Source: Streptomyces sp. NRRL WC-3742
Lineage (GTDB): Bacteria > Actinomycetota > Actinomycetes > Streptomycetales > Streptomycetaceae
Assembly (NCBI RefSeq): GCF_000720635.1
Contig: NZ_JOCF01000092.1
Coordinates: 1-50,400, forward strand
DNA length: 50,400 nt
Direction of reading: 5' to 3'
A model generated the notes under the pieces. The model ran no database searches. It worked only from the letters and a program-made list of their open reading frames with translations, and was not told the origin of the DNA. Positions 6,125-44,816 of the stretch are shown piece after piece (position 1 is the first letter of the stretch; the number at the start of each line of letters is the position of its first letter). The translations under genes were made by a program, and so were the position numbers.

Positions 6125-6165
6125 TGTGCGCACACCACGGAAGTTGAGCCAGAACCACTTCACGT

Positions 6166-6299
6166 GAACGAAGCCAACCCTGGGTAGTTCCGCTGCCCCG
6201 CCAGGACGGAAACGGCCGAACCGGCTGCCCATCCTCGAACTTCACCCCAGCCGCATCAGACCAGAGCCACCCGATGCCCGCACCCGTCACCATCGACAT
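6166..6299 (-). pseudogene. N-terminal remnant of a TnsA-like transposase endonuclease, frameshifted
   Basis: From the ATG at 6299 (GAGG six nt upstream) the minus strand reads MSMVTGAGIGWLWSDAAG and then KFEDGQPVRPFPSWRG. As I recall, actinobacterial TnsA-like proteins continue here with GQRNYPGL-type sequence. The bases do encode QRNYPGL, but in a different frame, so a single-base frameshift at about 6195 is visible. The frame stops beside the ISL3 inverted repeat, so the rest was lost or displaced by that insertion. It is evidence of a former heteromeric Tn7-like transposon. The family call rests on a short motif. Confidence 0.5.
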
Positions 6300-8782: not shown

Positions 8783-9475
8783 CCGCAAGGCCACCTCACC
8801 TCGCAGCTCGGCGTCAAGCAGACGCCGCCAGGCGAGGAGAGTCTGGTGACCCACATGGTCGACCGCGACCGCGTCGCCAGTAACCTCCTCGACCAGGTCG
8901 TGGCGATCGAGCCCGACCACTTCGAAGGACGCCTCAGCCTGCTGCCTTCCAGCTTCGACGCCTTCCTGCTCGACTCCCAGCTCGGATCAATCCGCGGCCC
9001 CCGTGAGGCCAGCCTCCAACGTGCCCTCGCCCCACTCGAGGAACATTTCGACGTCATCGTGATCGACGCTCCCCCGAACTTGGGCCTCGCGATGGACGCC
9101 GGCCTCTACTACGGCCACCGCCGCAAGAACGAACCGGTAGGCGCCTCCGGAGTCCTCATCCCTGTGGAAGCCGAGGACTCCTCCGCCGACGCCTACGCCA
9201 TGCTCGACAGCCAGATCCGCACCGTCAGTCTCGACTACGAGGTCGACATCGACCGACTCGGCCTCGTCGTCAACAAGTTCGACAAGCGCAAGGGCTACGT
9301 CGCCACCCACTCCCTCAACGAGTGGCAGTCCCTCGGCACCCCGCCCGTCGTCTCCGTCGTTCCCGACCTCAAGGAGCAACGGGAAGCAGTCCACGTCAAG
9401 CAGCCGCTGCTCATGTACGCGCCCACATCCACCCAGGCGCAGCGCATGCGTGAGATCCGACGGAGGCTCGCATGA
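8783..9475 (+). pseudogene. parA: ParA-type ATPase lacking its N-terminus (no Walker A)
   Basis: From PQGHLTSQLGVK onward this is a ParA/MinD-family ATPase: FDVIVIDAPPNLGLAM is the Walker B/switch region, LVVNKFDKR follows, and the C-terminus is normal. ParA proteins carry KGGVGKT about 40-50 residues before DPQG. Here everything before PQG is replaced by unrelated sequence from the opposite-strand replication remnant, so the ATP-binding P-loop is gone. Upstream in-frame starts would only add non-homologous residues. The stop overlaps the parB start (ATGA). It is likely non-functional, and a second intact parA lies at 43933-44694. Confidence 0.8.
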
Positions 9476-10743: not shown

Positions 10744-11691
10744 TCACCGCTGCCCCCAGTCCCACGGGGCCGGCCGGGCGCCGCGCAGGCACGCCACTTG
10801 GTGGACCGCCAGGTCGTGGGTCCGGGAGTCGAGGCGGGCACGGCGCACGGTGTCCATCACGACGGTGAGCACGACGAGGTCCCGCACGACCTGGTAGCCC
10901 GACCACGCGCCGATGCGGTCGCAGGGCATCGCGGCGTCGGTCCGGCCGTGCGCGGTGTAGGTGCGGTGGTATGCCTGCAAGTCGTCGCGGCGGCCGCGCA
11001 GCAGCTCGTTGCTCCAGCGCGCGGCGACCAGGTCCCACTCCCGGTGGCCGCGCCACAGCGGTCTGCGCAGCGCCAGCTGCGGGTGCGTCCCGCCGTCGTG
11101 GCAGCGAGCAAGTCGTCGGGCGCCGAGGATGACGGTGGGCGGGGTCGGCCAGTCGATGCCTGCCCACTCCGCGCGCAGCCAGGCGGTGCACTCGAACAGG
11201 AACCGGCGGGCGGACCCGCTCAGCGGGGCGTCGTCCAGGCCGTCCAGCAGGCCGGCGAACGGGTCGTGCTCCTCCAGCCACAGTGCGGACCCGGGATGGA
11301 TCCGGTGCACCGCGGCGGTCACCCGGGCGCTCAGCGACTCGTCCCGGCGCCGTTCCCCAGGGTCGTGCCAGAAGGTGACGGCCCGGCCGGCAGCCGTGCG
11401 CACGCCGCCGTAGTACGGGGCGACGACGGCCACCCGGTGCTGTTCCAGCAGCTCCGCGCCCCGCACCAGCGCCCATGCCTCGTCCTGACCCGTGTGTACC
11501 AGGGCGATCGCGCGCGAAGCGGGCAGCGACCAGACGTCGTGAGGGTGGTCGCTGACCAGCTCGGCGTGCCGGGCGTCGTCGCCGGTGGCCGCGCATGCCT
11601 GGGCCAGGGCCACGTAGGACGCTGTGACGTCCTGTCTGCGGGTGCGGCCGGTGGTCTCGAGCAGCGCGCTGGTGCTCGGTCCGATGCTCAT
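10744..11691 (-). CDS. Aminoglycoside-phosphotransferase-fold protein lacking catalytic motifs (pseudokinase)
   Basis: This 315-residue protein follows the layout of APH/choline-kinase family phosphotransferases: GRAVTFWHDPGERR, VTAAVHRIHPG, HDPFAGLLDGL, LRAEWAGIDWPTPPTVI and then GHREWDLV at 215-222. The Brenner loop that should read HGDxxxxN is LGARRLARC (189-197), and the DFD metal site is replaced near LALRR (206-210), so catalysis is very unlikely. The ATG at 11691 overlaps the stop of the IstA-like gene (ATGA) and has a GAGGA ribosome site within that gene, so the two are translationally coupled. A sensing or scaffolding role is inferred. Confidence 0.65.
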   Translation of the reverse strand: MSIGPSTSALLETTGRTRRQDVTASYVALAQACAATGDDARHAELVSDHPHDVWSLPASRAIALVHTGQDEAWALVRGAELLEQHRVAVVAPYYGGVRTAAGRAVTFWHDPGERRRDESLSARVTAAVHRIHPGSALWLEEHDPFAGLLDGLDDAPLSGSARRFLFECTAWLRAEWAGIDWPTPPTVILGARRLARCHDGGTHPQLALRRPLWRGHREWDLVAARWSNELLRGRRDDLQAYHRTYTAHGRTDAAMPCDRIGAWSGYQVVRDLVVLTVVMDTVRRARLDSRTHDLAVHQVACLRGARPAPWDWGQR

Positions 11692-12866
11692 GGAGCAGTC
11701 CTCGGGTGCAGAGTCGAAGGACACGGTGTCCTGCGGGCTCGCGCCCCGGCGCCGGACGTCCGGCCGGGCCGTTCCAGGGCGATCGGGCCGTTGTGCTCGG
11801 AGACCGTCCGGCCCGCCCCCCTCGGCGCCCTCCGGAAGCAGGCGATGACCGCCCCGCGGGTGGTGGTGATCGATAGGTGGGGTTCGTCCAGCCGTCGGCG
11901 GATCCTCACCTCGTTGCCGACGAGACCTGCCGGGAGTAGGTAGAAGTTGCCCTCGAACGGCACGAGTCCGCGGGGGTCGACCCTGCGCTGGACGCAGATG
12001 CGCGCCGGGAATGGTTTCGAGGGCAGGGGCAGCAGGGCTCGGGTGTGGCAGCCCGACTGCCGGTTCCGGCTGCCCGAGCGCTCGGTCAGGCGGTCGAGGC
12101 TGTCCTGGGCCGCTTGAACGTCGGGTTCGCCGGCTGCGGTGTCCCACCAGTGGAGGACGACGGAGCGGCGGGCGCGGACGACGGGGTTGGGCGCTCCCGT
12201 CCTGGGGCGGATCGCGATGGAGGCGCCGTAGTGGATCGCGATCTCGTGGAAGACGGCGGTCACCTTGCCGGCCGTCGAGCAGACCGGCGCAGTCCGGTCG
12301 AATAACCAGCGCTCGCCGGTGCCGCCGAGGCGGCGCAGCACCTGGTCCAGGGCTTCCACGCAGTGCGGGAGGTCGCTGGTGCCGGCCAGGGCGGCCCGCC
12401 AGTGGCCGGATCGCGTGAGCGAGCCCATGAGCAGGTACATCTCTTGCCCGTAGTCCCATTCGACCGGTGGGGCCGGGAGCTGTACCCAGTCGAACTGCAC
12501 GTCTTCCAGGGGGCCTCGGCCGGGGCTGGCCCTCCTGCGGTGGCGCGGTCCGCGACGCGGCCACATCAGATGCCTGCGCAGGGCGCGGGTGAAGGTCGAG
12601 TAGGCGCGGTTGTAGCCCAGCTCGACGATCTCGCTGTGGAGCATTCTCGCCTGCAGGTGCGGATCGTCGTCGAGGCGCTGCTGGCAGTACGGGACGAACT
12701 GCAGGAACTCGTCACGGGTCTCCGCCCGGACCCCTATGGTCCGCTCCCCGTTGAGGTAGGCCCTGACCGTCTTGCGGTCACGGCCCATGCACCGGGCGAT
12801 CGCCGAGATGGACCAGCCCTGGTGGCGCATGGCGCAAATCTCTCGGTATTCCTCTGCACTCAGCAT
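11688..12866 (-). CDS. IS21 IstA-like protein with degraded catalytic triad (copy 1)
   Basis: The 392-residue protein starts MLSAEEYREICAMRHQGWSI with a helix-turn-helix (SAIARCMGRDRKTVRAYL, about 21-38), as in IS21 IstA. The RNase H-like core is recognisable: VQFDWVQL (Asp126), LTRSGHWRAAL, WLFDRTAPVC (Asp190), then FHEIAIHYGASIAIRPRTGAP. In active IstA the next block carries the catalytic Glu (GLVER-type); here it reads NPVVRARRS, so the Glu is absent. No istB and no terminal repeats are visible, and a non-transposon gene is coupled downstream. It looks domesticated, probably a DNA-binding regulator. A paralogue lies at 28540-29988. Confidence 0.7.
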   Translation of the reverse strand: MLSAEEYREICAMRHQGWSISAIARCMGRDRKTVRAYLNGERTIGVRAETRDEFLQFVPYCQQRLDDDPHLQARMLHSEIVELGYNRAYSTFTRALRRHLMWPRRGPRHRRRASPGRGPLEDVQFDWVQLPAPPVEWDYGQEMYLLMGSLTRSGHWRAALAGTSDLPHCVEALDQVLRRLGGTGERWLFDRTAPVCSTAGKVTAVFHEIAIHYGASIAIRPRTGAPNPVVRARRSVVLHWWDTAAGEPDVQAAQDSLDRLTERSGSRNRQSGCHTRALLPLPSKPFPARICVQRRVDPRGLVPFEGNFYLLPAGLVGNEVRIRRRLDEPHLSITTTRGAVIACFRRAPRGAGRTVSEHNGPIALERPGRTSGAGARARRTPCPSTLHPRTAP

Positions 12867-13723: not shown

Positions 13724-16700
13724 TCATGGGTTCTTCCTCGGCGGTTCGGTGGCGGCGGTCGGCGGCCGGGCCGACCGCGGCGAGCGGGGAGCGATGAGGT
13801 CCGCCGCCCGGGGCGTGGTCTGGCCGGGGGGATCCGGTGGAGCGTCGGCGGTCAGGCTGATGCCGATGTGCTGCGCGAGGCCGTCGGCGAGAGCTGCCAG
13901 TGTGGGGTGGCCCGCGACGAAGTCGCCGGCGAGCCTGACGCCGAGGGATGCCTCCAAGCGGGTGCGCAGTTCGATGCGGAGCAGGGAGTCGAACCCGAGC
14001 GCGTTCAGCGGGGTCTGCGGGTCCAGGGTGCTGGCCCCCAGCCGGAGCACGGTGCGGATGTGTCCGGCCAGGTAGTCCTCGAGGACCGTGCGGCGGGCGA
14101 GGCCGGGTTCCGCGGTCCGCAGCTCGCCCCGGATGTCGCGCGCCGCATCCTGCCCGGACGCCTGTACGGGGGTGCCGGGCGCCTCGGGCGTGAGGAGGGC
14201 GAACAGCGAGGACGCCCGCCCGGCCGGGGGGATCCAGGTGTCCGGCGGGCCCGGAATCACGCCGGTGCGTACACGGCCGTGGGTCAGGAGCGCCGCCAGG
14301 GCCTCGAGTCCTTCTGCGGTGGGAATGGTCTGGTAGCCGCGGGCCGCAAAGCCGGTGGCGACCCCGGTTTCGCCCCAGGGCCCCCAGTTCACGGCCAACG
14401 CGGGCAGGTTCAGGGCGGTGCGCCAGGTGGCGAACGCGTCGAGCCACGCGTTGGCGGCCGAGTAGGCGCCCTGGCCCGGGTTGCCGAACAGGGAGGCCAT
14501 GGAGGAGTACAGGACGAACCAGTCGAGCGGCAATCCGGTGGTGGCCTCGTGGAGGCGCCAGGCGCCGGTGACCTTGGGATGCCAGACGCGTTCGAGCTGG
14601 TCGTCGGTGATGTTGGACACTGCGGCGTCGTCGAGGACCATCGCGGCGTGGATCACGCCGCGCAGTGTCCCGCCGCCCGCGGTGGCCTCGGCCACCAGCT
14701 GCTCGGCGATGCCGGGCTGCGCGATGTCTCCGAGCACGACGCTGACGTGGGTCCCCTGTTCGCGCAGTCCGGCAAGGACCCGTTCGGTCTCGGCCGAGGG
14801 GGACGTGCGTCCGTTGAGGACGAGGTGGGCGGCGCCTCGGCCCGCCAGCCAGAGGGCCGTGGCGAGGCCGACGCCGCGCAGGCCGCCGGTTACGACGTAG
14901 GCGCCGTCCGCCCGTACCGGCGAGGGCGGGTCGCGCAGTACGGCGGTGGCGTGGCCTTCGTCGGGCACCGTCAGGACCAGTTTGCCGATGTGCCCGGCGC
15001 CGGCCATGAGGCGGAAGGCGTCGGATGCCTGCGCGAGCGGATAGGTCCGGCACGGCAGCGGGGCGAGGGTGCCCTGGCGGAGTTCGGCCAGGACCTCGCC
15101 CAGCAGCTCGGCGAAGGTGTCCGGGCGGGTGTCCTGGAGCTCGACGAGGTCGACCGCGCTCATGGTGATGTTGTGCCGTAGCGGTGCGAGACCCAGCGGG
15201 GTGTCGGCGAGGATGTCGCGCACACCCAGCTCGACGAACCTGCCGAAGGGGCGCAGTGTTTCCAGTCCGGCCCTGATGGCGGGCCCGGGGAGGGAGTTGA
15301 GGACCACGTCGACACCCTCTCCGGCTGTGGCGTCGCGGGTCTGCTCAGCGAAGTCCAGCGAGCGGGAGTCCATGACGTGCCGGATACCCATCGCGCGCAG
15401 GTACTGGCGCTTGTCCTCGCTGCCGGCGGTGGCGAGCACGTCGGCGCCCAGGCGCCGCGCGACCGCGATCGCGGCCAGTCCGGTCCCGCCTGTGGCGCTG
15501 TGGATCAGGACGCGCTCGCCGCCGGCGAGCCTGGCGAGGCGGCGCAGTGCGTACCAGGCGGTGAGGTAGGCGACGGGCACCCCGGCGGCCGTCTCCGCGG
15601 ACAGGCCCGCCGGGGCGGGGGCGACAGCGGCGGCGGGCAGGGTGGCGAAGGTCGTGAAGAGTCCGCCTCGTACGTCGGCGGCGAGGACGCTGTCGCCGAC
15701 GCACACGTGTCTGACGCCCGGTCCGACTGCGGTGACCACGCCGGTGGCTTCGAAGCCGATGCGGTAGCCCGCCTCGTCGTCGGTCGCCAGCATGCCCATG
15801 GCGGTGAGCACGTCGCGGAAGTTCACGCCCGCGGCGTGGAGGCGCAGTTCGACCTCACGGGGGCCGGGGGCACGCCGTGGTGAGGTGGTCAGGCGCAGGG
15901 CGTCTAGGTCGCCGAGCCGCCCCGCGTGGAGCTGGAAGCGGTCGGCGCCGTAGCGCACGGTGCGGGTGACGGCAGTGGCGCGTTCGGTCTCCGACAGGGG
16001 GGTGTAGGACAGCCGGGCGATGTGCCGGGTGTCACCGCGCAGGGCGATCTCGTCCTCAGGGGGGTCGGCGAGGAGTTCGGCCGCGAGCCGGTGCAGGCCG
16101 GTGTCGGCGCGGTCGGCGTCGATGAGGGTCGCCCGCAGCTCCGGGTGTTCGTGCGTCAGAACGCGCACGAGTCCGCGCAGGGCGCTCTGGGCGGGGTCGG
16201 CGGGCTGCCCCGGCTCCGGAGCGTGGGCGGACCGGGTGACGGCGAACAGGCGTGCGGGCGTGCCGCGCGCGATCGCGCTCTGTGCGGCGGCGAGCAGGCG
16301 GCGGGTGCGGCGCAGTGCGATCGCGGCCGCGTCGTCCTCGGGCGCGGCCGGCGCGGACAGGAGGACCACGGCGCACGGTGCGGGTGCGGAGTCCCAGTGC
16401 CGGGCGATGCTCTGCTTGAGCGGCTGGAGGGCGGCGCTGTCGACGGGGACGTCGAGGACGTCGGTGCGGGCTCCGGCGAGCTTGAGGGCGTCCGCCAGTG
16501 CCCGGGCGGATCCGTCCGCCTCTCCGATGACGAGCCAGGGGCCCGGGGCGGGCGGTTCGAGGCCCTCCCGGCGCGGCACCGGCTGCCAGCGGGTCTCGAT
16601 GAACCACCGGTCGACGGTTTCGTCGGCCCCCGCGCCGCGGCGTACGAAGCGCAGCGCGTCGATCTCGACGAGGGGGTTTCCCGCCTCGTCCAGCAGTCGC

Positions 16701-19700
16701 ACGTCCCCGACGATGCTGTCCGCGGCGGTGCGGGTGAGCCGGGCGTGTGCGTAGCAGGCGTCCTCGGGGGCTGCAAGGATCCGCACGGCGCGCATCCCGA
16801 CGGGCAGTACCAGGCCGTGGCCCGGTTCGTCGATCAGGCCGGCGACGACGAGCTGGGCGCACAGGTCCAGGAGGACCGGGTGGATACGCAGACCGTGGCG
16901 GGCGGTGCGTGCCGGGTCCGGCAGCGTCACGCGGGCCCAGAAGCTGTCGCCTTGGGCGCAGGCGCGCAGCTCGGTGATGCCGCTGAAGGCGGGTCCGTGC
17001 TCCAGGCCCCGTGCGCGCAGGCTCGCGTAGAGGGCGTGTGGATCCAGGACGACGGGGTGGTCGGCGGCCAGTGCGGCCGCGGGGAGTACCGGTATCCGGA
17101 GGGAGGCGTCGATGCGGCGCAGGACCGCGGTGGCCTGCCGTACCCAGGTCCCGTCCTTGTCGCGGCCGAACACTTCGCAGTCGGCGCGGTCGGCGCCGGT
17201 CAGGGTGACGGTCGTGCCGACGGGCGTGCGGGCGTCGAGGTGCAGCAGCTCGCGGAAGCAGATGTCGGTCACTTCGACATCGTGCGTGGCGCTGCGGAAC
17301 ACCTCGCCGGCCGCGGTCAGGGCCAGGGCGCAGTAGGCGGCGCCGGGCAGGACCGGCCGGCCGTGGATGCGGTGGTCGGCCATCCAGGGCAGGACGTCGG
17401 TGCCGGTGTCGGCGTGCCAGGTGTGGCGGGGCTGGTCGCCGGGCACCTCTGTGTGTGCTCCCGGCAGGGCGGCGGGGGTGCTCTCGGTGTGCGGGGAGGC
17501 CGCTGCGGGCGGGGTGGTGTCGGTCCAGTGGGGTCGGCGGTCGAAGGTCAGCGCGGGTACGTCGGCCAGGCGGCCGCCTGCGTAGAGGCGGGACCAGTCG
17601 ACGCCGACTCCCGCGCAGTGCAGGGCGGCGAGCTGGGTGCGGAAGGTGGTGGGGTCGTCTTCCCCCTTGCGCAGTGTCGGCAGGATCACGGGCTCGTGGA
17701 GCAGGCCGGTCAGGCTCTGGGCGAGGGGACGGGTGACGACGGCGTGCGGCGAGATCTCGAGGTACACCTGGTGGCGGTCGGCGGCGGCCGCGGCCACGGC
17801 GGCGCCGAAGCGTACGGGTCGGCGTAGGTTGGCGCACCAGTAGGCGGCGTCGAAGACCGGGGTGTCGCGGGGGTCGTCCAGGACGGTGGTGTAGAAGGGG
17901 ACGGTCGGCCGGCTGGGGGTGAGCTCGGTGAGCTCGGCGGCGAGGTCCGCGAGCAGCGGGTCGACCTGAGGGCAGTGCGAGGCGACGTCGACGTCGATCA
18001 GACGTGCCACGAGTCCGCGGGCCTGCCAGGCGGTGGTCAGGTGCCGGACGGCGGCCGCGGTGCCGGCGACGACGGTCGAGTCGGGGGCGGCGACGACGGC
18101 CACCGACACCGTGCCGTCGCCGATGGCGGCGAGGTCGTTCTCGACGGTCGCGCTGTCGAGGCCGACGCTCGCCATGGCGCCGGCTCCGGCGATGCGGGTG
18201 AGGAGGGCGGACCGCCGGCAGATGACGCGGACGCCGTCGGCCAGGGTGAGCGCTCCGGCGGTGACGGCGGCCGCGACCTCGCCCATGGAATGGCCGATGA
18301 CGGCAGCCGGTTCGACCCCGTGGTCGCGCCAGGCGGCGGCCAGGGCGATCTGCAGGGCGAACAGTGCGGGCTGCACGCGGCCGCAGCCGCTGACGTGTTC
18401 GCGGTCGCGGACGGCCCGTAGGACGGAGAACCCGGTCTCGGCGCCGATCAGCGCATCGGCTTCGGCCAGGGTTTCGGCGAAGGCCGGCTCGTGCTGGAGC
18501 AGGCCGTGCCCCATGCCCTGCCACTGCGAGCCCTGGCCGGAGAACACCCAGACGGGACGGCGGGTGACGCCCGCGCCCACGTGGCCGAGTACGACGCCGG
18601 GGTGGGCCCGGCCGGCTTCGAAGGAGTGCAGGGCGTGCGCCAGGTCGCGGTGGGAGTCGGCCACCACGCCGAGCCGGCCGCGCCCGGGGGAGCGGCGCAG
18701 GGCGAGGGTGTGGGCGATGTCGCGCAAGGGAGTGGCGGCTCCCTCGGCCTCCAGCCAGTGGGCCAGGCGCGAGGCGGCGGCGGGCAGTGCGTCCGGGGAG
18801 CCGGCGGCGAGGAGGAAGACGTGGGGTGGGGCGGCCTGCGATCGCGCCGGCGGGGCGCCGGCGGGGACGGCGGCCGCGTGTGCGGCGGTGCCGGCGGTCG
18901 GAGTGCCGGGGAGGACGACGGCGCGGCGGCGGACCGGGGCCTGTTCTAGGACCACGTGGGCGTTGGTCCCGGAGAAGCCGAAGGAGGACACCGCGGCCAG
19001 TCGCGATGCCGTCCGGGTGGGCCAGGCGGACAGGCCGGTGGGGACGAACAGGCGGGTGCCCTCGGCGCTGATGGCCGGGTTCCACCGGGTGAAGTGCAGG
19101 TTGGGCGGGACTAGCCCGCGCCGGAGGCAGAGCACCGCCTTGATCAGGCCAATGACGCCGGCCGCCGGTTCCAGGTGGCCCACGTTCGTCTTCACCGAAC
19201 CCAGCGCGCAGCGCCCCTGTCCGGTGCCGTAGACCGCGGCCAGGCTGGAGAACTCGACGGGGTCGCCGACGGGTGTGCCGGTGCCGTGCGTCTCCACCAG
19301 GCCCACGTCGCGCGGGTCGGTTCCGGCTCGGGCGAGGGCCTGGCGGTAGAGGGCCTGCTGGGCCTCGGCGGAGGGCGAGGCCAGGACGTCGGAACGGCCG
19401 TCCTGGTTGACGGCCGAGCCGCGGACCAGGGCCAGGACGCGGTCGTCGTCCCGTAGCGCGTCCTCGAGGCGCTTGAGGACGACGACGCCGCAGCCTTCGC
19501 CGCGGACGAAGCCGTCCGCGGCCGCGTCGAAGGTCCGGCACCGGCCGGTGGGCGAGAGCATCCCCATACGGGCGAAGGACATCGTCGTCCTGGCGCCGAG
19601 TATGAGGGTGACGCCGCCGGCCAGCGCGAGATCGCACTCGCCGTCGCGCAGGGCCTGGCAGGCCAGGTGGACCGCCACGAGCGAGGACGAGCACGCGGTG

Positions 19701-20230
19701 TCCAGCGCCACGCAGGGGCCCTGCAGGCCCAGCAGGTAGGAGATGCGCCCCGGGGCGACGCAGTGCCCGTTAGTCAGGACCGCGCCCTCGAGTTCCCGGG
19801 GCTGGCCGGCGAGGGACTCCATGTAGTCGGTGTAGCTCAGGCCCGAGAACAGTCCCGTGGAGGTCCCTGCCAGCTGCTCCGGGGGGAGTCCGGCATGTTC
19901 GAGTGCCTCCCACGTCACTTCCAGGAGCAGCCGGTGCTGGGGGTCCAGGACGTCGGCCTCCTTGCCTGAGACCCCGAAGAAGTCGGCGTCGAAGCCGGCG
20001 ACGTCGCCGAGGTATCCGCCCCACGGCGGCATCGGCCCGGCGGCGTGGGCCGGGGCCGCAGCCACGTGCCCCGCGCGGCCGATCGGCGGTTGGCCGACCG
20101 CGTCCCGGCCGGCTTCGAGCAGCCGCCACAGCGCGGCGGGCGAGTCGATGTCGCGGGGAAGCCGGCATCCCATGCCGACGACAGCGATGTGCGCGTCAGC
20201 GGCTCTCAGGTTCTCTGTGTGGCCCATCAC
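13724..20230 (-). CDS. Highly reducing type I polyketide synthase, one full module (KS-AT-DH-ER-KR-ACP)
   Basis: The 2168-residue protein contains, in order: KS (Cys180 in DTACSSS, His315 in HGTGT, His352 in NVGHLE); AT (Ser648 in GHSMGE, specificity motif VASH at 749-752, seen in methylmalonyl- and Mas-like AT domains); DH (His954 in HRIHGRPVLP, and HPVLLDLCAQ); ER (NADPH site LIHSATGGTGLAAIAVAR); KR (VVTGGLRGVGLA, and SSMASLFGNPGQGAYSAAN); and ACP (LGFDSLLRIEL). All catalytic residues I checked are present. There is no loading module or thioesterase, which fits an iterative, Mas-like enzyme making a fully reduced, possibly methyl-branched chain. The start follows the ketosynthase gene by 75 bp. 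Confidence 0.92.
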   Translation of the reverse strand: MMGHTENLRAADAHIAVVGMGCRLPRDIDSPAALWRLLEAGRDAVGQPPIGRAGHVAAAPAHAAGPMPPWGGYLGDVAGFDADFFGVSGKEADVLDPQHRLLLEVTWEALEHAGLPPEQLAGTSTGLFSGLSYTDYMESLAGQPRELEGAVLTNGHCVAPGRISYLLGLQGPCVALDTACSSSLVAVHLACQALRDGECDLALAGGVTLILGARTTMSFARMGMLSPTGRCRTFDAAADGFVRGEGCGVVVLKRLEDALRDDDRVLALVRGSAVNQDGRSDVLASPSAEAQQALYRQALARAGTDPRDVGLVETHGTGTPVGDPVEFSSLAAVYGTGQGRCALGSVKTNVGHLEPAAGVIGLIKAVLCLRRGLVPPNLHFTRWNPAISAEGTRLFVPTGLSAWPTRTASRLAAVSSFGFSGTNAHVVLEQAPVRRRAVVLPGTPTAGTAAHAAAVPAGAPPARSQAAPPHVFLLAAGSPDALPAAASRLAHWLEAEGAATPLRDIAHTLALRRSPGRGRLGVVADSHRDLAHALHSFEAGRAHPGVVLGHVGAGVTRRPVWVFSGQGSQWQGMGHGLLQHEPAFAETLAEADALIGAETGFSVLRAVRDREHVSGCGRVQPALFALQIALAAAWRDHGVEPAAVIGHSMGEVAAAVTAGALTLADGVRVICRRSALLTRIAGAGAMASVGLDSATVENDLAAIGDGTVSVAVVAAPDSTVVAGTAAAVRHLTTAWQARGLVARLIDVDVASHCPQVDPLLADLAAELTELTPSRPTVPFYTTVLDDPRDTPVFDAAYWCANLRRPVRFGAAVAAAAADRHQVYLEISPHAVVTRPLAQSLTGLLHEPVILPTLRKGEDDPTTFRTQLAALHCAGVGVDWSRLYAGGRLADVPALTFDRRPHWTDTTPPAAASPHTESTPAALPGAHTEVPGDQPRHTWHADTGTDVLPWMADHRIHGRPVLPGAAYCALALTAAGEVFRSATHDVEVTDICFRELLHLDARTPVGTTVTLTGADRADCEVFGRDKDGTWVRQATAVLRRIDASLRIPVLPAAALAADHPVVLDPHALYASLRARGLEHGPAFSGITELRACAQGDSFWARVTLPDPARTARHGLRIHPVLLDLCAQLVVAGLIDEPGHGLVLPVGMRAVRILAAPEDACYAHARLTRTAADSIVGDVRLLDEAGNPLVEIDALRFVRRGAGADETVDRWFIETRWQPVPRREGLEPPAPGPWLVIGEADGSARALADALKLAGARTDVLDVPVDSAALQPLKQSIARHWDSAPAPCAVVLLSAPAAPEDDAAAIALRRTRRLLAAAQSAIARGTPARLFAVTRSAHAPEPGQPADPAQSALRGLVRVLTHEHPELRATLIDADRADTGLHRLAAELLADPPEDEIALRGDTRHIARLSYTPLSETERATAVTRTVRYGADRFQLHAGRLGDLDALRLTTSPRRAPGPREVELRLHAAGVNFRDVLTAMGMLATDDEAGYRIGFEATGVVTAVGPGVRHVCVGDSVLAADVRGGLFTTFATLPAAAVAPAPAGLSAETAAGVPVAYLTAWYALRRLARLAGGERVLIHSATGGTGLAAIAVARRLGADVLATAGSEDKRQYLRAMGIRHVMDSRSLDFAEQTRDATAGEGVDVVLNSLPGPAIRAGLETLRPFGRFVELGVRDILADTPLGLAPLRHNITMSAVDLVELQDTRPDTFAELLGEVLAELRQGTLAPLPCRTYPLAQASDAFRLMAGAGHIGKLVLTVPDEGHATAVLRDPPSPVRADGAYVVTGGLRGVGLATALWLAGRGAAHLVLNGRTSPSAETERVLAGLREQGTHVSVVLGDIAQPGIAEQLVAEATAGGGTLRGVIHAAMVLDDAAVSNITDDQLERVWHPKVTGAWRLHEATTGLPLDWFVLYSSMASLFGNPGQGAYSAANAWLDAFATWRTALNLPALAVNWGPWGETGVATGFAARGYQTIPTAEGLEALAALLTHGRVRTGVIPGPPDTWIPPAGRASSLFALLTPEAPGTPVQASGQDAARDIRGELRTAEPGLARRTVLEDYLAGHIRTVLRLGASTLDPQTPLNALGFDSLLRIELRTRLEASLGVRLAGDFVAGHPTLAALADGLAQHIGISLTADAPPDPPGQTTPRAADLIAPRSPRSARPPTAATEPPRKNP

Positions 20231-20305: not shown

Positions 20306-21718
20306 TCAGTCGACGTCCGATCTGCCCAGCAGGATCGCGCTCTTGACGCCACCGATCTGGTAGTTGCAGGTGAGCGCGTAGTCGAACTCCAGGTGCCGGG
20401 TGCGCAGCCCGGGGACGGGGTCGAAGCAGATGTTGTCGGCCGGCTCCTCGCAGTTCGCGGTGGGGCACACCTCCCCCTGCCCCAGCATCAGGAGGGTCAG
20501 GGCGACGCCCAGGGCTCCTGCCGGGGCGCCGTTGTGGCCGAAGCAGGCTTCCTGGGAGGTCATCAGGAGGTCTTCGACGGCGTTGCCGTAGAGCTGTCGG
20601 GCGGCGTTCGCCTCGAAAGCGGTCACGACGACGTCGCCGTCGCTTCCGCCGTGGATGTAGGGGATCTGACCGATGTCCCACCGGTCGCCGAGGCACTTGC
20701 GGATGGCGGCGACCAGCGAGGCGCCGTTCTCGTCGCTTGCGAGCGGGTTGGAAAGGCCGTCGCGGGTCATGCCGTGCGACAGGACCTGGCCGTAGGTGAA
20801 CGCCCCGCGCTGCCGGGCGTGGTCGCGGCTCTCCAGCACCAGGGTCACCGACCCCTCCCCGTGGTTCACGCAGTCGGCCCGCCGGTCGTAGGGCCTCATG
20901 ACCCGGTCGAAGGCCGGGAGGAGTTCGGGCATGCCGTCGACGCGGATGGTGTCGTAGGCGCGCTGGGCGCCGTGCAGCAGACGCTGGACATTCTGGATCA
21001 CGTCCACGCTGAACACGTCCACGCCGGTGACGACGGCGAGATCGGTGTCGCCGTCCGCGATCATGCGGCGGGCGTTGCCGATCTGGACGGCGGAGGACGC
21101 GCAGCCGCACGACACGGTGAAGCAGGGACCGCTCGTGCGCATCAGCGCCCCTTGGACCAGCGCCACGTCGGAAGGGGTGAGTCCCTGCTGCGCCCTGACG
21201 AACAGCTCCATCGCCTGGTGCGGCGCGATGGCGCCCGCGTCGGCGTGCAGGACCTCGAGGTAGCTGGAGACGTTGGCGTCGATGCCCCCACGCCCGACCA
21301 GGACGGCGGCGTCGGTGAGGTCGCCGTCCCGGATGCTCAGTTGGGCGTCCGAGCAGGCTTCCACGAGGGATACCAGCCCGTAGCGGTGCGCGTTGGTGTA
21401 GTGCTGGGAGAAGATGCCCGGCAGTCCGGGCAGGCGCTCCGCGAACGCCGCGTCCGGCAGATCGACGGAGCCGTAGTAGACACCGTGGTGCTTGAGGCAC
21501 GAGCGGCCGTTGGAGGCCACGTCCCAGACCTCGCCCGCGGTGAACAGTGGCTGCTTCTCGCCCGGCAGGCAGAACCCCATGCCGGTGACCACGGTGTCCC
21601 GAGCGCCGCTGCCGCCTCGCGGGCGCGAGCTGGAGGACCCGCTCACGACGCGCCCCCACGGGTGCGGGGCTGACGCTCTGTCCGTACTCGTACGGGACGG
21701 TCGCTGGTCATTGCTCAC
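20306..21718 (-). CDS. Stand-alone beta-ketoacyl synthase-like protein with altered active-site surroundings
   Basis: The 470-residue protein has the FabF/thiolase fold. The nucleophile Cys206 lies in FTVSCGCASSAVQIG, His356 in IPYIHGGSDGD (in place of HGTGT) and His395 in EACFGHNGAPAGALG. Its end, CNYQIGGVKSAILLG, matches the usual FGGxN segment. The lysine that normally precedes the second histidine (KSxxGH) is Gln389, and the first 40 residues are a disordered Ser/Arg-rich leader. It is the first gene of an operon with the PKS. It may prime the PKS, act as a condensing or acyl-transferring enzyme, or control chain length. The ATG at 21718 follows GAGGTGA. Confidence 0.8.
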   Translation of the reverse strand: MSNDQRPSRTSTDRASAPHPWGRVVSGSSSSRPRGGSGARDTVVTGMGFCLPGEKQPLFTAGEVWDVASNGRSCLKHHGVYYGSVDLPDAAFAERLPGLPGIFSQHYTNAHRYGLVSLVEACSDAQLSIRDGDLTDAAVLVGRGGIDANVSSYLEVLHADAGAIAPHQAMELFVRAQQGLTPSDVALVQGALMRTSGPCFTVSCGCASSAVQIGNARRMIADGDTDLAVVTGVDVFSVDVIQNVQRLLHGAQRAYDTIRVDGMPELLPAFDRVMRPYDRRADCVNHGEGSVTLVLESRDHARQRGAFTYGQVLSHGMTRDGLSNPLASDENGASLVAAIRKCLGDRWDIGQIPYIHGGSDGDVVVTAFEANAARQLYGNAVEDLLMTSQEACFGHNGAPAGALGVALTLLMLGQGEVCPTANCEEPADNICFDPVPGLRTRHLEFDYALTCNYQIGGVKSAILLGRSDVD

Positions 21719-28539: not shown

Positions 28540-29988
28540 TTGCTGACCGGAGAGGAATACATCAACATCTGTGCCCTGCGATCCCGAGGATTGTCCGTCG
28601 CCGCAATCGCCCGTCTCCTCGGCCGCGACCGCAAGACGGTGAGCTCCTATCTGAGCGGGAAGCGTACGGTCGGGGTCCGCAGCTCCGGCCGGGGCGAGTT
28701 TGAGCGATTCATCCCCTACTGCCGCCAGCGGCTGCAGGACGATGCCCACTTCGAGGCGTCGGCACTGTTCGCCGAACTCGTCGATCTCGGCTACAGCGGC
28801 GGCTACTCGACCTTCACCCGCGCCCTGCGAACCCATCAGCTGCGTCCCAGGTGCCCGCTGTGCCAGCGTCCGCCCCGCACCCGCCCCGCTCGGCAGGACG
28901 ACGCGGAGGAAGTGCACTTCCGCTGGTTCGTCTTCTGCGACCCCCCTGCGGACTGGGGTAGCACCCACGCCTGCGTCCTGGTGGGACGCCTGACCCGCTC
29001 CCAGCGCTGGAGCGCGGCGCTCGCGGAGCAGATCGATTTCGGCCACCTGGTCGGCTCCGTCGACCAGATCCTGCGCCAGTTCGGCGGGACCGGCTGGCGC
29101 TGGCGCTTCGACCGGACGCAGCCGATCCACTGCCCGGGAGGCGGAAAGCTGACCACGGCGCTGGGCAGGGTCGCGAAGCACTACGGCGTCGTCGCGGACC
29201 TCGGTCCGGCGCGGCAGGACGCCGACGACGAGGCGATCGGGCAAGCGCTCGCCCTGTGGTGGCGGGCCGGTGGTGCGGACACCGGCCCGCTGGAGGCGCA
29301 GGCGAGCCTCGACAGGCTGGCCAGGCTCATGCGCACCCGCCATGCCTCGGCACGGGGCCACGACGGAAGCACCGTGCCGCCCGCGCCGGTCCTGCTCGAC
29401 CTCCCCCACGACCCGTACCCCGCGAGGATCAGCGTGACCCGCACGGTGTCGGCCAACAGCATGGTGTCGTACCGGGGCAATCTCTACGCGGTTCCGCGGC
29501 ATCTGCACGGCCACGCCGTGGAGGTGCGCCGAAGGCTCGGTGACCCCCTCCTGGCGATCGCGACCCCTCGTGGACGGGTGATCGCCCAGCATTCACTGGC
29601 GCCCGACGGTGCCAGCCTGTCGGTCATCGGCCACCGGCACGGGATCGGTCTCGAGCGTCCACTCCCGGTACCGAGGCCGGCCTGCAACAGCAGGATGTAC
29701 AGTCCGCCGTCCGCCGAAGCGCTCGCGGCGGCCGACGCGCTCCGACAGGACACCCGCCAGGAGGACGGATTAGAGCCCGGTCGACAGGCCGACGGTTCGT
29801 CGGCGCGCTCCGGCCGGTCCTGGCGGTGGACGGGCGTTCTCGACCGGATCCGGAAGGAGCCCACCGAGGACGAGGAGCACGTCTGTTCCGAAGCCGTGAT
29901 CCACCTCGCCGCGCATCGGCAGCACGACCCGACGCCGTACCGGCGAAGCCACACCGGCTCGGCGAGGCACCCGGACCGGACGAGATAG
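28540..29988 (+). CDS. IS21 IstA-like protein with degraded catalytic triad (copy 2)
   Basis: The TTG at 28540 has AGGAG five nt upstream and gives MLTGEEYINICALRSRGLSV, aligning with the N-terminus of the IstA-like protein at 11688-12866. The helix-turn-helix is AAIARLLGRDRKTVSSYL. In the core the first catalytic Asp is replaced by Arg128 (VHFRWF where copy 1 has VQFDWV), Asp191 (WRFDRTQPIH) remains, and no catalytic Glu can be placed with confidence. The 482-residue protein has a longer tail than copy 1. There is no istB and no transposon ends. Most likely a domesticated DNA-binding protein related to copy 1. Confidence 0.7.
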   Translation: MLTGEEYINICALRSRGLSVAAIARLLGRDRKTVSSYLSGKRTVGVRSSGRGEFERFIPYCRQRLQDDAHFEASALFAELVDLGYSGGYSTFTRALRTHQLRPRCPLCQRPPRTRPARQDDAEEVHFRWFVFCDPPADWGSTHACVLVGRLTRSQRWSAALAEQIDFGHLVGSVDQILRQFGGTGWRWRFDRTQPIHCPGGGKLTTALGRVAKHYGVVADLGPARQDADDEAIGQALALWWRAGGADTGPLEAQASLDRLARLMRTRHASARGHDGSTVPPAPVLLDLPHDPYPARISVTRTVSANSMVSYRGNLYAVPRHLHGHAVEVRRRLGDPLLAIATPRGRVIAQHSLAPDGASLSVIGHRHGIGLERPLPVPRPACNSRMYSPPSAEALAAADALRQDTRQEDGLEPGRQADGSSARSGRSWRWTGVLDRIRKEPTEDEEHVCSEAVIHLAAHRQHDPTPYRRSHTGSARHPDRTR

Positions 29989-41252: not shown

Positions 41253-41370
41253 CGCGCTGCTCTCCCCTCGCCCTGGGTGGGTCCGAGTTGAACTATGCCC
41301 TGCCAGAGGCCGGCTCATCCGGGGGATTCGTAGGCCGTGCTGGGGTTCGGCGGAGCCGTGGGGCAGGCCG

Positions 41371-42490
41371 TCAGATGTTGTGCAGGTAGGCGAGCTGGAT
41401 GGTGCGGGCGGCCTGTTCTGCGGTGTCGTGCAGCATCGCCTCCTGGGTGACCGGGTCGCCGAGGAAGCACTGCTCGTACACCGCGACCCACGAGGAGCAC
41501 GTCCGGGTTGACGGTCCATCCGGCAAGCGCCCAGAAGTCGCCGAAGATCCGGTTGTCCAGTGCCGTGGTGACATCCGTGTCCGGCAGCCGGCGCAGCATC
41601 GGGTCCGCCGGAACGGCGACCACGGCCGGCAGCGCGGGTGCCGCTGCGGCCGGGAGCGAGGATGCCTGTTGCGCCAGGCGGCGGTCCACCAGCTCTCGCA
41701 GCCCGCCGCGGCCGGGCTGCGCGGCCGATGAGGTTTCCCCTCGGGGTGCAACGGGCTCCGGGGCGGCGTCTGTGACGGCCGACGGGGTTTCTCCCCGGGG
41801 GGCTTCGACGTGTTCTGGGCCCGTCGTGGAGGTCGTCGCGGTCGGAGCCTCGGGTACCGGGGCTTCTCCCCGGGGCGCGGGGGCGAGCGGCTCGGGATCG
41901 GCCGCTCCCGCCAAACCTGCGGGCGGGGCTTCGCGATCTCCCCCGGCAGCGTTCGGGACGACCACCTCGCGGGGCCGCGTTTCGCCTCGGGGTGAAACTC
42001 CGGGTATCGGGAGGGTTTGGTCAGGCTCGGGCCGCCGAGTGGGGTGTGTGGCCAGCAACTGCTCCGCGAGCTCACGGTGGCGGGCGGTCAGGGCGCGGGC
42101 GGCGTGGAGGATATCGGCCAGGGCCTGGCTGGCCAGAGCAGGGTCGCCTTGGCGGGCGGCGCGGTCGAGCCGGAGCAGGAACGCGGTGTCCTGGCGGCGC
42201 AGGTTTTCGCTGAGGGCCAGTAGCTCGACCGCTTCGGGGCTGGTCGCCAGCCCGGCGGGAAGCGGGGTTTCGCCCCGGGGGGATTGAGCGGAGGCGGCGA
42301 GCGTCTGTACCTGCCGTTCCTTGTCCCGCTGGCGGTCTGCCCGGGAGGAGCACGCCTTCGAGCAGTACTTCCGCGGGCGCCCGCCCCTGCCGCTGCCGCC
42401 CTGTCCGAGCTCCGCGCCGCACACGGTGCAGGTCGGCACACCGAACAGCATCGGCTCGACCGGAACGTTTATCCCCGGGGAGAAACTCAT
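41371..42490 (-). pseudogene. Zinc-ribbon protein gene studded with palindromes; one-base frameshift near its end
   Basis: The ATG at 42490 begins MSFSPGINVPVEPMLFGVPT and a zinc ribbon (CTVCGAEL...RKYCSKACSSRADRQRDKER). A helical region follows (ALASQALADILHAARALTARH). A long Pro/Ala linker has five [AS]PRGE motifs, and the C-terminal domain contains TALDNRIFGDFWALAGWTVN. At about 41495 the homologous ending shifts frame: VAVYEQCFLGDPVTQEAMLH, ending LAYLHNI at 41371, lies in another frame. Either this is a real one-base loss or a sequencing error. The gene follows the parA-parB-small gene run on the same strand, so a role in segregation is inferred. Confidence 0.6.
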
Positions 42491-42540
42491 GCCGGGATGC
42501 TATCCGCACGCCAGTGCGAGGTTTCACCCCGAGGGGAAAT
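41733..42540. repeat. Seven copies of a 20-bp palindrome, consensus GTTTCnCCCCGGGGnGAAAC
   Basis: Copies at 41733-41752, 41787-41806, 41861-41880, 41979-41998, 42267-42286, 42467-42486 (across the first codons of the gene) and 42521-42540 (upstream of it). The copy at 41979 is nearly perfect, and the one at 42467 differs at one arm base. Five copies are translated in one frame as [AS]PRGE[TA]. This is the strongest repeated DNA signal in the window. Confidence 0.8.
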
Positions 42541-42576: not shown

Positions 42577-42810
42577 TTACTCGCCGACGACAACACCGGT
42601 GGCGTAGGAGAAACCTCCGGAACCGAGGCGGCGACGGGTTCCGGTTTCAGGGATCGCGGCGGGAGCGACAGGCTCAGCTGCGGGCAGCGGAGCAAGGAGT
42701 CGCCGAACCGGAAGCAGCCGCTCGGCGGTCGCCCCGGCGCCAGGGACGCCCTGGTGTGTGGCAGGCAGAGCCAACGAGCGTCGGACGAGACGGTCAAGAT
42801 CGTCACTCAT
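42577..42810 (-). CDS. Small protein following parB-2, 77 residues
   Basis: The product begins MSDDLDRLVRRSLALPATHQ, continues Ala/Pro/Arg-rich and ends FSYATGVVVGE. Its ATG lies 12 bp after the parB-2 stop on the same strand, so it is probably the third gene of the partition operon. It is followed by a palindrome and the zinc-ribbon gene. No family recognised. Confidence 0.5.
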   Translation of the reverse strand: MSDDLDRLVRRSLALPATHQGVPGAGATAERLLPVRRLLAPLPAAEPVAPAAIPETGTRRRLGSGGFSYATGVVVGE

Positions 42811-42822
42811 GCCGACAACCTG

Positions 42823-43932
42823 TCACACTGGGACACGGGCCCGGCCGCGGCAGGGGCACCTCGCAGCGCGATATGCACAAATCGGCGGCATCTTGTCGAA
42901 TTCGTCGGTCGGCATTGTGTCGATCAGGTAGCGCGCCGCGGCAACACCGTCGCTGTGAGGAAACGGCTTGGGCTGCTGTTCTCCCGTCGTTTCAGGCGGG
43001 CCGGCCTGTCCGGGAACAACGGGCATGCCCTCCACCTCTGCGTTGGCGGGGGGGCCGGACTCCGCCGGAGTGGGTTCTGTCAGCGCCGAGTTGGCCCGGT
43101 CTGTTTTACGGCCGTAAAACGGGTCTGCCGTGGGCTGCTCAGGACCGGAACCTGGCTCGCCTGTCGGCGCCGCGGGAGCATCGACCTTCTTGGCGGCCTT
43201 CCGGGCAGCCTTCTTGGCAGCCGACCGTTCAGCAGATGCGGCGACCCTCTGCTTCTGCTCGTCCTGCCACCACGCCAGTTGCTTCGTGGAGTCCCACTCG
43301 TTGTCCCGGGCCAGCTTGCCCAGCAACCGGGCCGCCTCGAGCGGCATGGTCTTCTTCCGTACCAGGTCCTGCACGTCCGGCGTCAGGTAGGTGAGGAGGA
43401 TGCGCTGGGTGACCCACCCATCGACCCGCTCAAAGTGCTGGGCGACGGCGCGGTTCGAGCCGAACTCCGCGACGAGGGCTTGTACGGCGTATGCCTCTTC
43501 GACGGGGTTGAAGCTTTGCCGGTCGACGTTCTCGGAGACCACGACCTCCATGAACGTCCTGCGGTCCTGAGCCAGGCCGTCGTCAACCACGCAGTTCAGG
43601 GTGGGGTTGCCGGTGGCCGTGGCGCCCCAGTACCGCCGCTCGCCAGCGACGAGAACGTAGTCGACGTCGCCGATCTCCTTCGCGTGGTCGGGCCACAGTT
43701 TCAGGTAAGCACCGCGACTGACGGCAGGGCATGCCTGGATCTGCCGGCGTCGCAGGCTCTTACCAAGGTCGACCAGCTCGGCTTCTGTGCCAAAGTCGAT
43801 ACGTGGATTGACCTCATTGGGAGCGAGTCGGCTGAGGGGAACGCGGAGCAGGCGGCCATCGGCTCGGGTGTCGGTGACTGGGGCGTCATTGTCATCGCCG
43901 AAGAAGTCATCGAACTCGTCGTGCGCGGACAT
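42823..43932 (-). CDS. parB: ParB-family partition protein (locus 2)
   Basis: The 369-residue protein has PLSRLAPNEVNPRIDFG and VLVAGERRYWGAT (the GERR CTP-binding motif), ENVDRQSFNPVEEAYAVQAL and a helix-turn-helix near NRAVAQHFERVDGWVTQRIL. Next come a Lys/Ala-rich linker (AKKAARKAAKKVDAPAAP) and a C-terminal segment. The start codon directly abuts the parA stop. The linker sequence FYGRKT, near residue 271, is encoded by an 18-bp palindrome also found upstream of parA. With an intact ParA it should form the working segregation system of the replicon. Confidence 0.85.
   Translation of the reverse strand: MSAHDEFDDFFGDDNDAPVTDTRADGRLLRVPLSRLAPNEVNPRIDFGTEAELVDLGKSLRRRQIQACPAVSRGAYLKLWPDHAKEIGDVDYVLVAGERRYWGATATGNPTLNCVVDDGLAQDRRTFMEVVVSENVDRQSFNPVEEAYAVQALVAEFGSNRAVAQHFERVDGWVTQRILLTYLTPDVQDLVRKKTMPLEAARLLGKLARDNEWDSTKQLAWWQDEQKQRVAASAERSAAKKAARKAAKKVDAPAAPTGEPGSGPEQPTADPFYGRKTDRANSALTEPTPAESGPPANAEVEGMPVVPGQAGPPETTGEQQPKPFPHSDGVAAARYLIDTMPTDEFDKMPPICAYRAARCPCRGRARVPV
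43103..43120. promoter_or_regulatory. Palindrome inside parB-2 (candidate parS)
   Basis: GTTTTACGGCCGTAAAAC, a perfect 18-bp palindrome read as F-Y-G-R-K-T in the parB linker. An identical copy lies at 44799-44816, upstream of parA. Identity over all 18 bp in two unrelated contexts argues for a binding site. Confidence 0.65.
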
Positions 43933-44694
43933 CTATCGGCCCCCCGCGTACTTCTGGCGGCGGAGCTGGTGCTCCAAGGCCAGGGACACGAAGTCCTGCT
44001 TGGCCTTGGTGGCGATGTGGTTGGACTCGTACTGGGTACAGAACCGTCCGTTGGTGATACCGCGGGTGTGCGGCTTGTAGTGACGCACGGTGGCGTTGTA
44101 GAGCTCCCAGCCTCTGCGTTGGACGAGGCTGATGGTGCGGTCGCGGTCTGCGGTCCCGTCTCGCGGGTCCCAGTTGTTGACGACGACGCCGTAGGGAATC
44201 TGGCGGGGGATGAGGACCCGCTCGACGGTGACCCTGGTCGGGGTGAAGGCGGAGCCTTCTGCTTCGAGGGGGACGATCACGTCGTCGGCGACGTCGAGAA
44301 CGGCTCGCAGCGCGTCCCCCGTGGTTCCGTCACCAAGAGGGTCGATGGACTCGTCTTCGTCGTCTTCGGCCTTCAACGGCATGAAGCCGGGAGTGTCGAC
44401 GATGATGATGTCGGCCTTGGCACTCCGCAGACGGCGCAGCTTGTCGACGCTCTGGCTCGCGTCAACCACTCGGAAGGGGACGGGCCTGCCGGCCTTCCTG
44501 ACCTTCTCGGTGTGTTCGATGCTGGTGCCCTGCGGATCTATTGAGACGACCGCGACGGACGGACCGCCACCTGCGGTCTCGGCTTCGACGGCATCGCAGC
44601 CGAGGAATTCGGCGTAGACCGCCGCGAGGTTGACGGACAAGAGGGACTTGCCGACCCCGCCCTTACGGTTCAAGAGCACGGTGATGTAGGGCAT
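43933..44694 (-). CDS. parA: ParA-family partition ATPase (locus 2)
   Basis: The 253-residue protein starts MPYITVLLNRKGGVGKSLLS with the deviant Walker A KGGVGKS at residues 11-17. It then has VAVVSIDPQGTS, ADIIIVDTPGFMPL (Walker B) and VIVPLEAEGSAFTP. It lacks an N-terminal DNA-binding domain, so it is of the small type Ib-like class. It is the first gene of the parA-parB operon. A candidate parS palindrome lies about 105 bp upstream, where ParB could also repress the promoter. It appears complete, in contrast to the headless parA at 8783. Confidence 0.88.
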   Translation of the reverse strand: MPYITVLLNRKGGVGKSLLSVNLAAVYAEFLGCDAVEAETAGGGPSVAVVSIDPQGTSIEHTEKVRKAGRPVPFRVVDASQSVDKLRRLRSAKADIIIVDTPGFMPLKAEDDEDESIDPLGDGTTGDALRAVLDVADDVIVPLEAEGSAFTPTRVTVERVLIPRQIPYGVVVNNWDPRDGTADRDRTISLVQRRGWELYNATVRHYKPHTRGITNGRFCTQYESNHIATKAKQDFVSLALEHQLRRQKYAGGR

Positions 44695-44798: not shown

Positions 44799-44816
44799 GT
44801 TTTACGGCCGTAAAAC
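44799..44816. promoter_or_regulatory. Palindrome upstream of parA-2 (candidate parS/operator)
   Basis: Second copy of GTTTTACGGCCGTAAAAC. The symmetry extends outward to GGCG/TGCC with one mismatch, giving about 26 bp. Position upstream of the parAB operon fits a centromere and/or autoregulatory site. Confidence 0.65.

Follow-up and report, generated by a model that had tools for sequence, protein, structure and literature searches.

SpdA2/sps of plasmid pIJ101 is the closest known system to the locus described here. SpdA2 is a zinc finger protein, and its own gene carries repeats of the 12-bp palindrome CGTCACGTGACG, which are translated as an SRDD/E peptide (PMC4170104). Binding of SpdA2 to these in-gene palindromes was observed by EMSA (PMC4170104). 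After three sporulation cycles the loss of pIJ303 was 16% when spdA2 was deleted and 21% when sps was silently removed, while copy number and transfer showed no significant change upon removal of spdA2 or sps (PMC4170104). In pSVH1 the sps palindrome overlaps the start codon (PMC4170104).

The gene analyzed here encodes an N-terminal zinc finger (~38 aa) with the same motif as in SpdA2, and also in SpdA of pJV1, pSN22, and pSVH1. As in these systems, repeated palindromes are located within its own coding sequence or where this begins. With 391 aa, the protein encoded by this gene (array protein) has about threefold the size of the SpdA proteins (117–163 aa), and its gene has seven sites compared to 1–3 in SpdA genes. 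The core is nCCCCGGGGn in the array and CGTCACGTGACG in sps; a C at half-site positions 8 and 10 is common to both, as are the arms in part. While SpdA is found on small, mainly rolling-circle plasmids, the array is found on Kitasatospora linear plasmids, and the array gene exceeds SpdA by a helical hairpin, a C-terminal domain, and an upstream palindrome that covers the likely promoter. Since size and core palindrome differ, we did not file the array gene as SpdA proper. A literature search, mostly without subscription journals, retrieved no paper on the present Kitasatospora zinc-ribbon array family. We lean towards reading the locus as an enlarged and diversified SpdA/sps-like module for plasmid stability, the protein of which would bind its own gene and repress its own synthesis.

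Palindromes in and around the array gene

The window, that is the whole stretch of 50,400 nt that was analyzed, contains seven 20-bp palindromes of the type GTTTCnCCCCGGGGnGAAAC within 808 bp (41733–42540). One site lies over the likely −35 region of the promoter, one in codons 2–8, and five in the linker of the gene 41315–42490 on the minus strand. An earlier note on this DNA had counted seven palindromes in ~810 bp, five of them in frame as PRGE, one over the first codons and one upstream, and the coordinates bear this out:

41315..42490, minus strand: array gene; ORF with N-terminal zinc ribbon, helical hairpin, disordered PRGE linker, and C-terminal domain
42317..42436, minus strand: zinc ribbon, CTVCGAEL...GRPRKYCSKACSSRADRQR; hhalign indicates homology to the zinc finger of SpdA2 (pIJ101)
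42497..42502, minus strand: candidate −10 box TAGCAT, 6 nt 5' of the ATG; conserved among loci
42521..42540, minus strand: palindrome 1, 31–50 nt 5' of the ATG; 3' arm TGAAAC at the expected −35; seen in 11 of 11 class-1 loci tabulated
42467..42486, minus strand: palindrome 2, codons 2–8, SFSPGIN frame; 191 or 200 nt ahead of the first linker site and therefore in another frame
42267..42286, minus strand: palindrome 3, linker A, SPRGET; motif match, codon test, conserved spacing
41979..41998, minus strand: palindrome 4, linker B, VSPRGET; the linker copy closest to the consensus, with 1 mismatch
41862..41881, minus strand: palindrome 5, linker C, APRGEA; 5 mismatches
41787..41806, minus strand: palindrome 6, linker D, APRGET; motif match, codon test, conserved spacing
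41733..41752, minus strand: palindrome 7, linker E, VAPRGET; its spacing to palindrome 6 is 54 bp, as between palindromes 1 and 2

The palindrome copies are imperfect, and bases 2–4 of the 5' arm are frequently off. Six of the seven sites (41733, 41787, 41979, 42267, 42467, 42521) matched GTTTCNCCCCGGGGNGAAAC with at most 3 mismatches. Shuffled controls (n = 100, same threshold) gave a mean of 0.03 matches and at most 1. The seventh site (41862–41881) has 5 mismatches to GTTTCNCCCCGGGGNGAAAC, but it stands at a position where relatives carry a site.

The domain layout of the array protein was read from an AlphaFold2 model of the relative P0002, which had a mean pLDDT of 74.2 with residues 158–254 mainly below 50. 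Foldseek retrieved no PDB match at E ≤ 0.001 for this model; residues 72–156 gave generic helical bundles only, and the C-terminal domain was barely covered. Pfam revealed no family in the array protein of the window, and the best E value among 39 family members was 0.0067. Two profile matches to the array protein were found in two frames (41435–42490 and 41377–41496). The window copy thus seems to carry a frameshift near 41480 or a sequencing error, with the last ~40 conserved C-terminal residues out of frame.

Of 11 loci, 10 had TAGCAT at 6–8 nt ahead of the ATG, and the remaining one had TACGAT. In the window, the 3' arm of palindrome 1 stands 18 bp upstream of TAGCAT, at the place of a −35. 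The position of TAGCAT 6 nt before the ATG suggests that the transcript of the array gene is leaderless. A generic promoter scan returned no sigma-70-like site at the start of the array gene; the −10 and −35 were read from conservation. By reasoning alone, we did not favor RNA hairpins as the function of the palindromes: these are loopless, and site 1 would not be part of the apparent transcript, being upstream of it.

Conservation of the array and selection on its DNA

We termed the array-gene family with the window-type palindrome (core nCCCCGGGGn) class 1. At least 38 relatives of the array protein were found, and every named one was from Kitasatospora or Streptomyces; this and the size of class 2 (see below) are lower bounds, since the protein searches scored the ~7991 candidates with most shared words. 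All 39 family members (window included) have at least one PRGE and 35 have at least three. M[ST]FSPG occurs at the start or within the protein in 28 of the 39, and the size is 350–450 aa in 32. One near-copy, P0041, was excluded from one family alignment. In the four plasmid records with a family match, the gene was on linear plasmids of 109–252 kb. Some strains carry two class-1 proteins (e.g., P0003 and P0004), which is awkward for a strict incompatibility centromere.

The earlier note had raised the question of whether the palindrome is limited to this gene, and this is largely the case. In the whole 8.74-Mb assembly, four matches with at most 2 mismatches were at the array gene and one was elsewhere. 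A search of 70 genomes of the genus of the window (taken as Kitasatospora from the named relatives) at the same threshold gave 55 places in 20 genomes, compared to 1 for the reversed control: 45 of them were in or beside a family match, 2 were ~1 kb off one (G063), and 8 were isolated. The five class-1 contigs that were scanned whole showed one cluster apiece and no more than one stray match at up to 4 mismatches. De novo clustering of palindromes showed no excess over controls in L011, L012, L013, and L017, though all of these carry arrays; GC-rich clusters that it returned in L016, L023, L027, L028, and L038 were taken as composition noise.

The spacing of the sites was near-fixed in 11 loci (window included), with successive distances of 54 (55 in one locus), 191 or 200, 288–315, 108–138, 72–75 (75 in the window, 72 otherwise), and 54 bp. 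Among these loci, L061 ends after four sites and L067 is without linker site C. The spacing table and the resampling described below exclude the fragmentary L062 and L066 as well as L006, a near-copy of L058. L066 is off the spacing rule (51, 200, 287, 90), and L062 is without the two front sites and has the last four only, at nearly regular spacings of 128, 72, and 54; it yielded no gene for the codon test and was dropped there. The linker spacings of the tabulated loci are multiples of 3, whereas the start-to-linker spacing is not, and one DNA word is read in two frames, as SFSPG at the start and as SPRGET in the linker. When 14 neighborhoods were compared, the array gene alone was common to all. 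A replication-relaxation-type gene was present in 6 of the 14 at variable distance, and a ~95-aa ORF in 5.

We compared codon usage in 48 PRGE motifs of 12 genes to usage elsewhere. Glu was encoded by GAA in 47 of the 48 motifs but in 70 of 263 cases elsewhere (p 3e-22; the p-values of the codon and resampling tests overstate independence, as the genes are related). Pro was encoded by CCC in 45 of 48 (182 of 479 elsewhere), and Arg by CGG or CGA in 47 of 48 (154 of 364 elsewhere). At the third base of Gly, a free position of the palindrome, GGG was not preferred (9/48 versus 72/385), and GGC was somewhat rarer in the motif (20/48 versus 248/385, p 0.003). In a synonymous resampling with fixed peptides (46 sites, 11 loci), the match to a consensus derived partly from the tested sites was 15.7 of 18 bases compared to 13.1 ± 0.15 (maximum 13.6). 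The number of dyad pairs, which is independent of the consensus, was 7.0 compared to 6.2 ± 0.15. Both observed values were above every one of 2000 resamplings.

Judged from the sequences, selection acts on the DNA of the array, since the codon bias, the resampling, the word read in two frames, and the spacing all point to it. This agrees with the earlier note, which had proposed selection on the DNA and a comparison of synonymous sites, as seen here in the GAA codons and in the resampling. As a case that would speak against its proposal, the note had named homologs that retain PRGE but have lost the DNA symmetry. This applies in part: a drift of symmetry was found at bases 2–4 of the 5' arm, but the PRGE codons are unchanged in relatives. 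Conservation over 73 sites was 0.60, 0.67, and 0.49 at these three bases, 0.89–1.00 in the core, and 0.81–0.99 in the 3' arm. Because the 5' arm of the linker sites is weakly conserved, their full two-fold recognition is not certain.

Related zinc-ribbon proteins and their palindromes

The SpdA2 ORF, which is not annotated in the pIJ101 record, was located at 8377–7973. An hhalign comparison of class 1 to the SpdA2 zinc finger gave a probability of 94.3 (E 1.1e-7, 38 columns, 42% identity). The sites of pIJ101 in a 20-bp frame, ATTCCGTCACGTGACGAAAC and GATACGTCACGTGACGAAAT, have a GAAA arm in common with the array, and partial GTTTC/GAAAC arms are visible in the sps sites taken as 20-mers, both in pIJ101 and pJV1 and in two further plasmids. 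The zinc-ribbon product had been named in the earlier note as a putative binder of the palindromes, and this would fit its homology to SpdA2, which binds palindromes in its own gene (PMC4170104). Among 14 SpdA-like records including pIJ101, four contain the exact sps core (L156, L170, L171, L178), three contain CGTCAAC variants (L173, L174, L177), and seven contain neither, two of these with one stray match. The pairing of SpdA and sps is not universal among SpdA-like records. The repeats in two of the records (L174 1084–1169, L177 1081–1157) use CGTCAACTGACG and not the sps core.

Distant homologs of the array protein (profile match 99.9%, E 6e-35) were termed class 2. This class comprises at least 32 proteins, 30 of the 32 with two or more RV[ED], and hhalign matched it to the SpdA2 zinc finger with 95.4% (E 1.7e-8). 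Where the DNA was read, it carries palindromes of the GTTTCGACGCGCGTCGAAAC type; the clearest are the seven sites of G051:C5 and the three of G040, and those of G030 (L194) are weak. SFDARG at the start is in one frame and SRVE/SRVET in the linker in another. Each of the four class-2 gene starts inspected showed a leaderless ATG preceded by a TAC-type −10, and no palindrome was obvious upstream. At up to 3 mismatches, the class-2 palindrome occurred in 20 of 70 genomes; several matches were single and apparently unrelated.

A homolog on G008:C2 (L082 3647–3892) is a zinc-ribbon gene with DASRDAS repeats. It has GATGCnTCnCGnGAnGCATC five times (at most 1 mismatch), which codes for DASRDAS in one frame and is partly out of frame. 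GATGCnTCnCGnGAnGCATC occurred elsewhere as single matches in five other genomes, and it is possibly a third palindrome type. The joint pattern GTTTCNNCNCGNGNNGAAAC was found 20 times in 15 of 297 genomes of the taxonomic family (reversed control 2), and 13 of these 15 belong to the genus of the window. A tree of the zinc ribbons (73 rows, 39 columns) had few resolved forks; class 1 formed a single clade in it (99/98). Class 2 was not one clade, and P0071 was placed beside class 1.

A motif scan, in which gene starts were guessed and offsets are rough, found a zinc-ribbon ORF in 17 of 35 loci. None was found in L172, L174–L177, and L180, which are SpdA-like, nor in 12 of one set of 18 stretches. 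The palindromes matched 31 times in 20.9 kb in genes and 14 times in 76.6 kb outside, a comparison biased upward by several loci that were chosen for their palindromes. Four zinc-ribbon loci (L181, L182, L199, L037) showed no in-gene palindrome match, and the repeats of L173 are largely non-palindromic. Palindromes of the class-2 type in L185–L189 and L191 were not linked to a zinc-ribbon gene by the ORF scan; L189 holds the G061:C2 homolog. On this 144-kb contig, four CCCGATCCCAGGATCGGA-like palindromes (L029 614–768) lie ~3.7–3.8 kb from the contig end.

A putative stability module and alternative readings

In the SpdA/sps-like module that we prefer, the array gene would encode a DNA-binding protein composed of a zinc ribbon, a helical hairpin, a disordered linker, and a C-terminal domain, and the seven 20-bp palindromes would be the binding sites of this product. 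Protein bound over the −35 and just inside the leaderless start would repress its own promoter. The five sites in frame in the linker may make the gene a platform for a compact nucleoprotein complex, which would support stable inheritance of the linear plasmid. The module is supported at the level of sequence by the selection on the DNA, the conserved geometry, the near-restriction to the family, the zinc-ribbon homology to SpdA2, and the different palindromes in related proteins. From these we infer binding by the own product and autorepression, and the role in stability is carried over from SpdA2 by analogy.

A centromere-like action of the array is possible. More tentatively, this may be a large family that segregates plasmids without an ATPase, each gene serving as its own centromere, with zinc ribbon and linker palindromes co-diversified into at least three specificities (nCCCC|GGGGn, GACGC|GCGTC, GATGCnTCnC|GnGAnGCATC). 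StbA of R388 and Par of pSK1 each consist of one DNA-binding protein with a repeat array at its own promoter and have no dedicated ATPase. The architecture of the locus, with an array at its own promoter and putative binding by the product, fits this likeness; it differs in having a zinc ribbon instead of a helix-turn-helix and in having most sites in the coding sequence.

It appears unlikely that the seven sites serve autoregulation alone, as operators of an autorepressor with promoter sites and in-gene roadblocks or looping partners and without a role in inheritance. Sites 1 and 2, which flank the conserved TAGCAT at a distance of 54 bp (about five helical turns), would suit such operators, as would the finding of a single cluster on each of the five class-1 contigs that were scanned in full length. 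The five downstream sites at near-fixed positions, however, exceed the need of an operator pair, and the relative SpdA2 affects segregation (PMC4170104).

The upstream side of the array gene in the window is occupied by the following genes:

43933–44694: parA, just upstream of the array gene
42823–43932: parB, just upstream of the array gene
~42577–42810: 77-aa ORF, just upstream of the array gene

This confirms the order in the earlier note, which had placed the gene directly downstream of parA, parB, and a small gene. A link of the array to the adjoining parAB was not supported by the relatives. Within 27 loci of 5–20 kb each, 12 of them with a class-1 array, no credible match to ParA or ParB of the window was found. 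The 195-kb array contig G006:C2 had no ParB_N match, and no protein related to ParB of the window was found on it, with the proviso that a highly divergent ParB may escape such searches. Five other array contigs (G003:C2, G007:C2, G036:C17, G041:C3, G043:C631) have a distant ParB relative 16–75 kb from the array, which on G043:C631 matches over residues 273–352 only. On the 121.9-kb plasmid of K. cathayae, parAB lies ~56 kb from the array gene. The parAB of the window has its own palindrome: a perfect 18-bp palindrome, GTTTTACGGCCGTAAAAC, is present at 43103–43120 in parB and at 44799–44816 upstream of parA. Its 16-bp core (at most 1 mismatch) occurs at four places in the 70 genomes, two of them in the window, one 2.6 kb from a ParB match (G003:C2) and one ~0.8 kb from a ParA-like match (G012). 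GTTTTACGGCCGTAAAAC is a good candidate for the true parS or operator of the window parAB.

We therefore give little credence to the array being a ParABS centromere, i.e., a parS array for a ParB, be it the adjoining one or one encoded elsewhere on the replicon. The neighborhood of parAB in the window and the ParB relatives elsewhere on five array contigs would fit this reading. The GTTTC...GAAAC arms of the array, which resemble chromosomal parS of Streptomyces, would fit as well. An inverted-repeat maintenance site near or in the gene of its binder is described for SCP2 ParT and SCP1 ParABS (PMC12260392, PMC13245405), and the parS of SCP2 lies within the parT coding sequence (PMC12260392). 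In contrast to these systems, the array protein of the window showed no ParB-type domain, no nearby parAB is needed, and there are seven sites instead of a short core. Given the lack of linked parAB near relatives, G006:C2 without ParB_N, and the separate GTTTTACGGCCGTAAAAC palindrome, the adjoining ParB is an unlikely binder of the array; some ParB acting at a distance is a possibility. The contig of the window has two parAB systems, as a second ParA-like (AAA_31) gene and a ParB match (9595–10515) are present in the region 8666–10515. Two parAB systems are likewise described for SCP1 (PMC13245405).

We consider it very improbable that the array is a replication origin, with iterons for a Rep protein inside the rep gene. 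In-gene iterons are attributed to pSLA2, and an internal repeat array in a gene on linear plasmids would be in line with this, as would the gene of the replication-relaxation family ~2 kb from the K. cathayae array gene, with relatives in the 6 neighborhoods named above. The iteron Rep origins of pFP11 and pWTY27 have repeats bound by a plasmid protein beside its gene (PMC3583192), like the array. In contrast, the nearest tested relative of the array protein, SpdA2, is dispensable for replication, and its loss left the copy number unchanged (PMC4170104). On the K. cathayae plasmid, moreover, DnaB is encoded ~18 kb from the array gene, and genes of the DciA family are found at distances of ~11 and ~23 kb. 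The GC skew of six contigs showed no clear switch at the array, which is a weak test; two of the six, G014:C41 and G036:C17, are from draft assemblies and may be incomplete.

It is barely credible that the DNA symmetry is a by-product, either of selection for the PRGE peptide or of mobile palindromic insertions: PRGE in every relative, three or more times in most, and a 3' arm (coding for ET) that is better kept than the 5' arm would agree with it, but peptide-only selection was rejected by the codon and resampling tests, with a codon bias confined to the motif, no GGG preference at the free base, and an excess over resampling, and the identical DNA in a non-coding site and in a second frame as well as the near-fixed spacing between loci also argue against it.

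Other genes of the window include an OLD-family AAA/TOPRIM protein (1491–3587). Proteins of this family are often linked with phage defence. Transposase genes of the ISL3 type and the Mu-C type are present at 4451–6232, 11688–12866, and 28639–29988. A ketosynthase gene (20306–21718) adjoins an ORF of 2168 aa (13724–20230), perhaps as part of a polyketide cluster.

With the SpdA/sps-like module as our preferred reading, the single and little-pursued observation of SpdA2/sps on a small plasmid extends to an apparently bigger and more varied family that resides on large linear plasmids. This family provides clean natural controls, as one DNA word is found outside coding DNA as well as in two reading frames, and related proteins have different words. 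Binding specificity, autoregulation, and ParAB-independent inheritance in mycelial bacteria thereby become directly testable. The array illustrates that a coding sequence can be constrained by DNA-binding sites. If the role as a centromere holds true, the family would represent a segregation system without a dedicated ATPase, in which protein-coding sequence is kept as centromere DNA.
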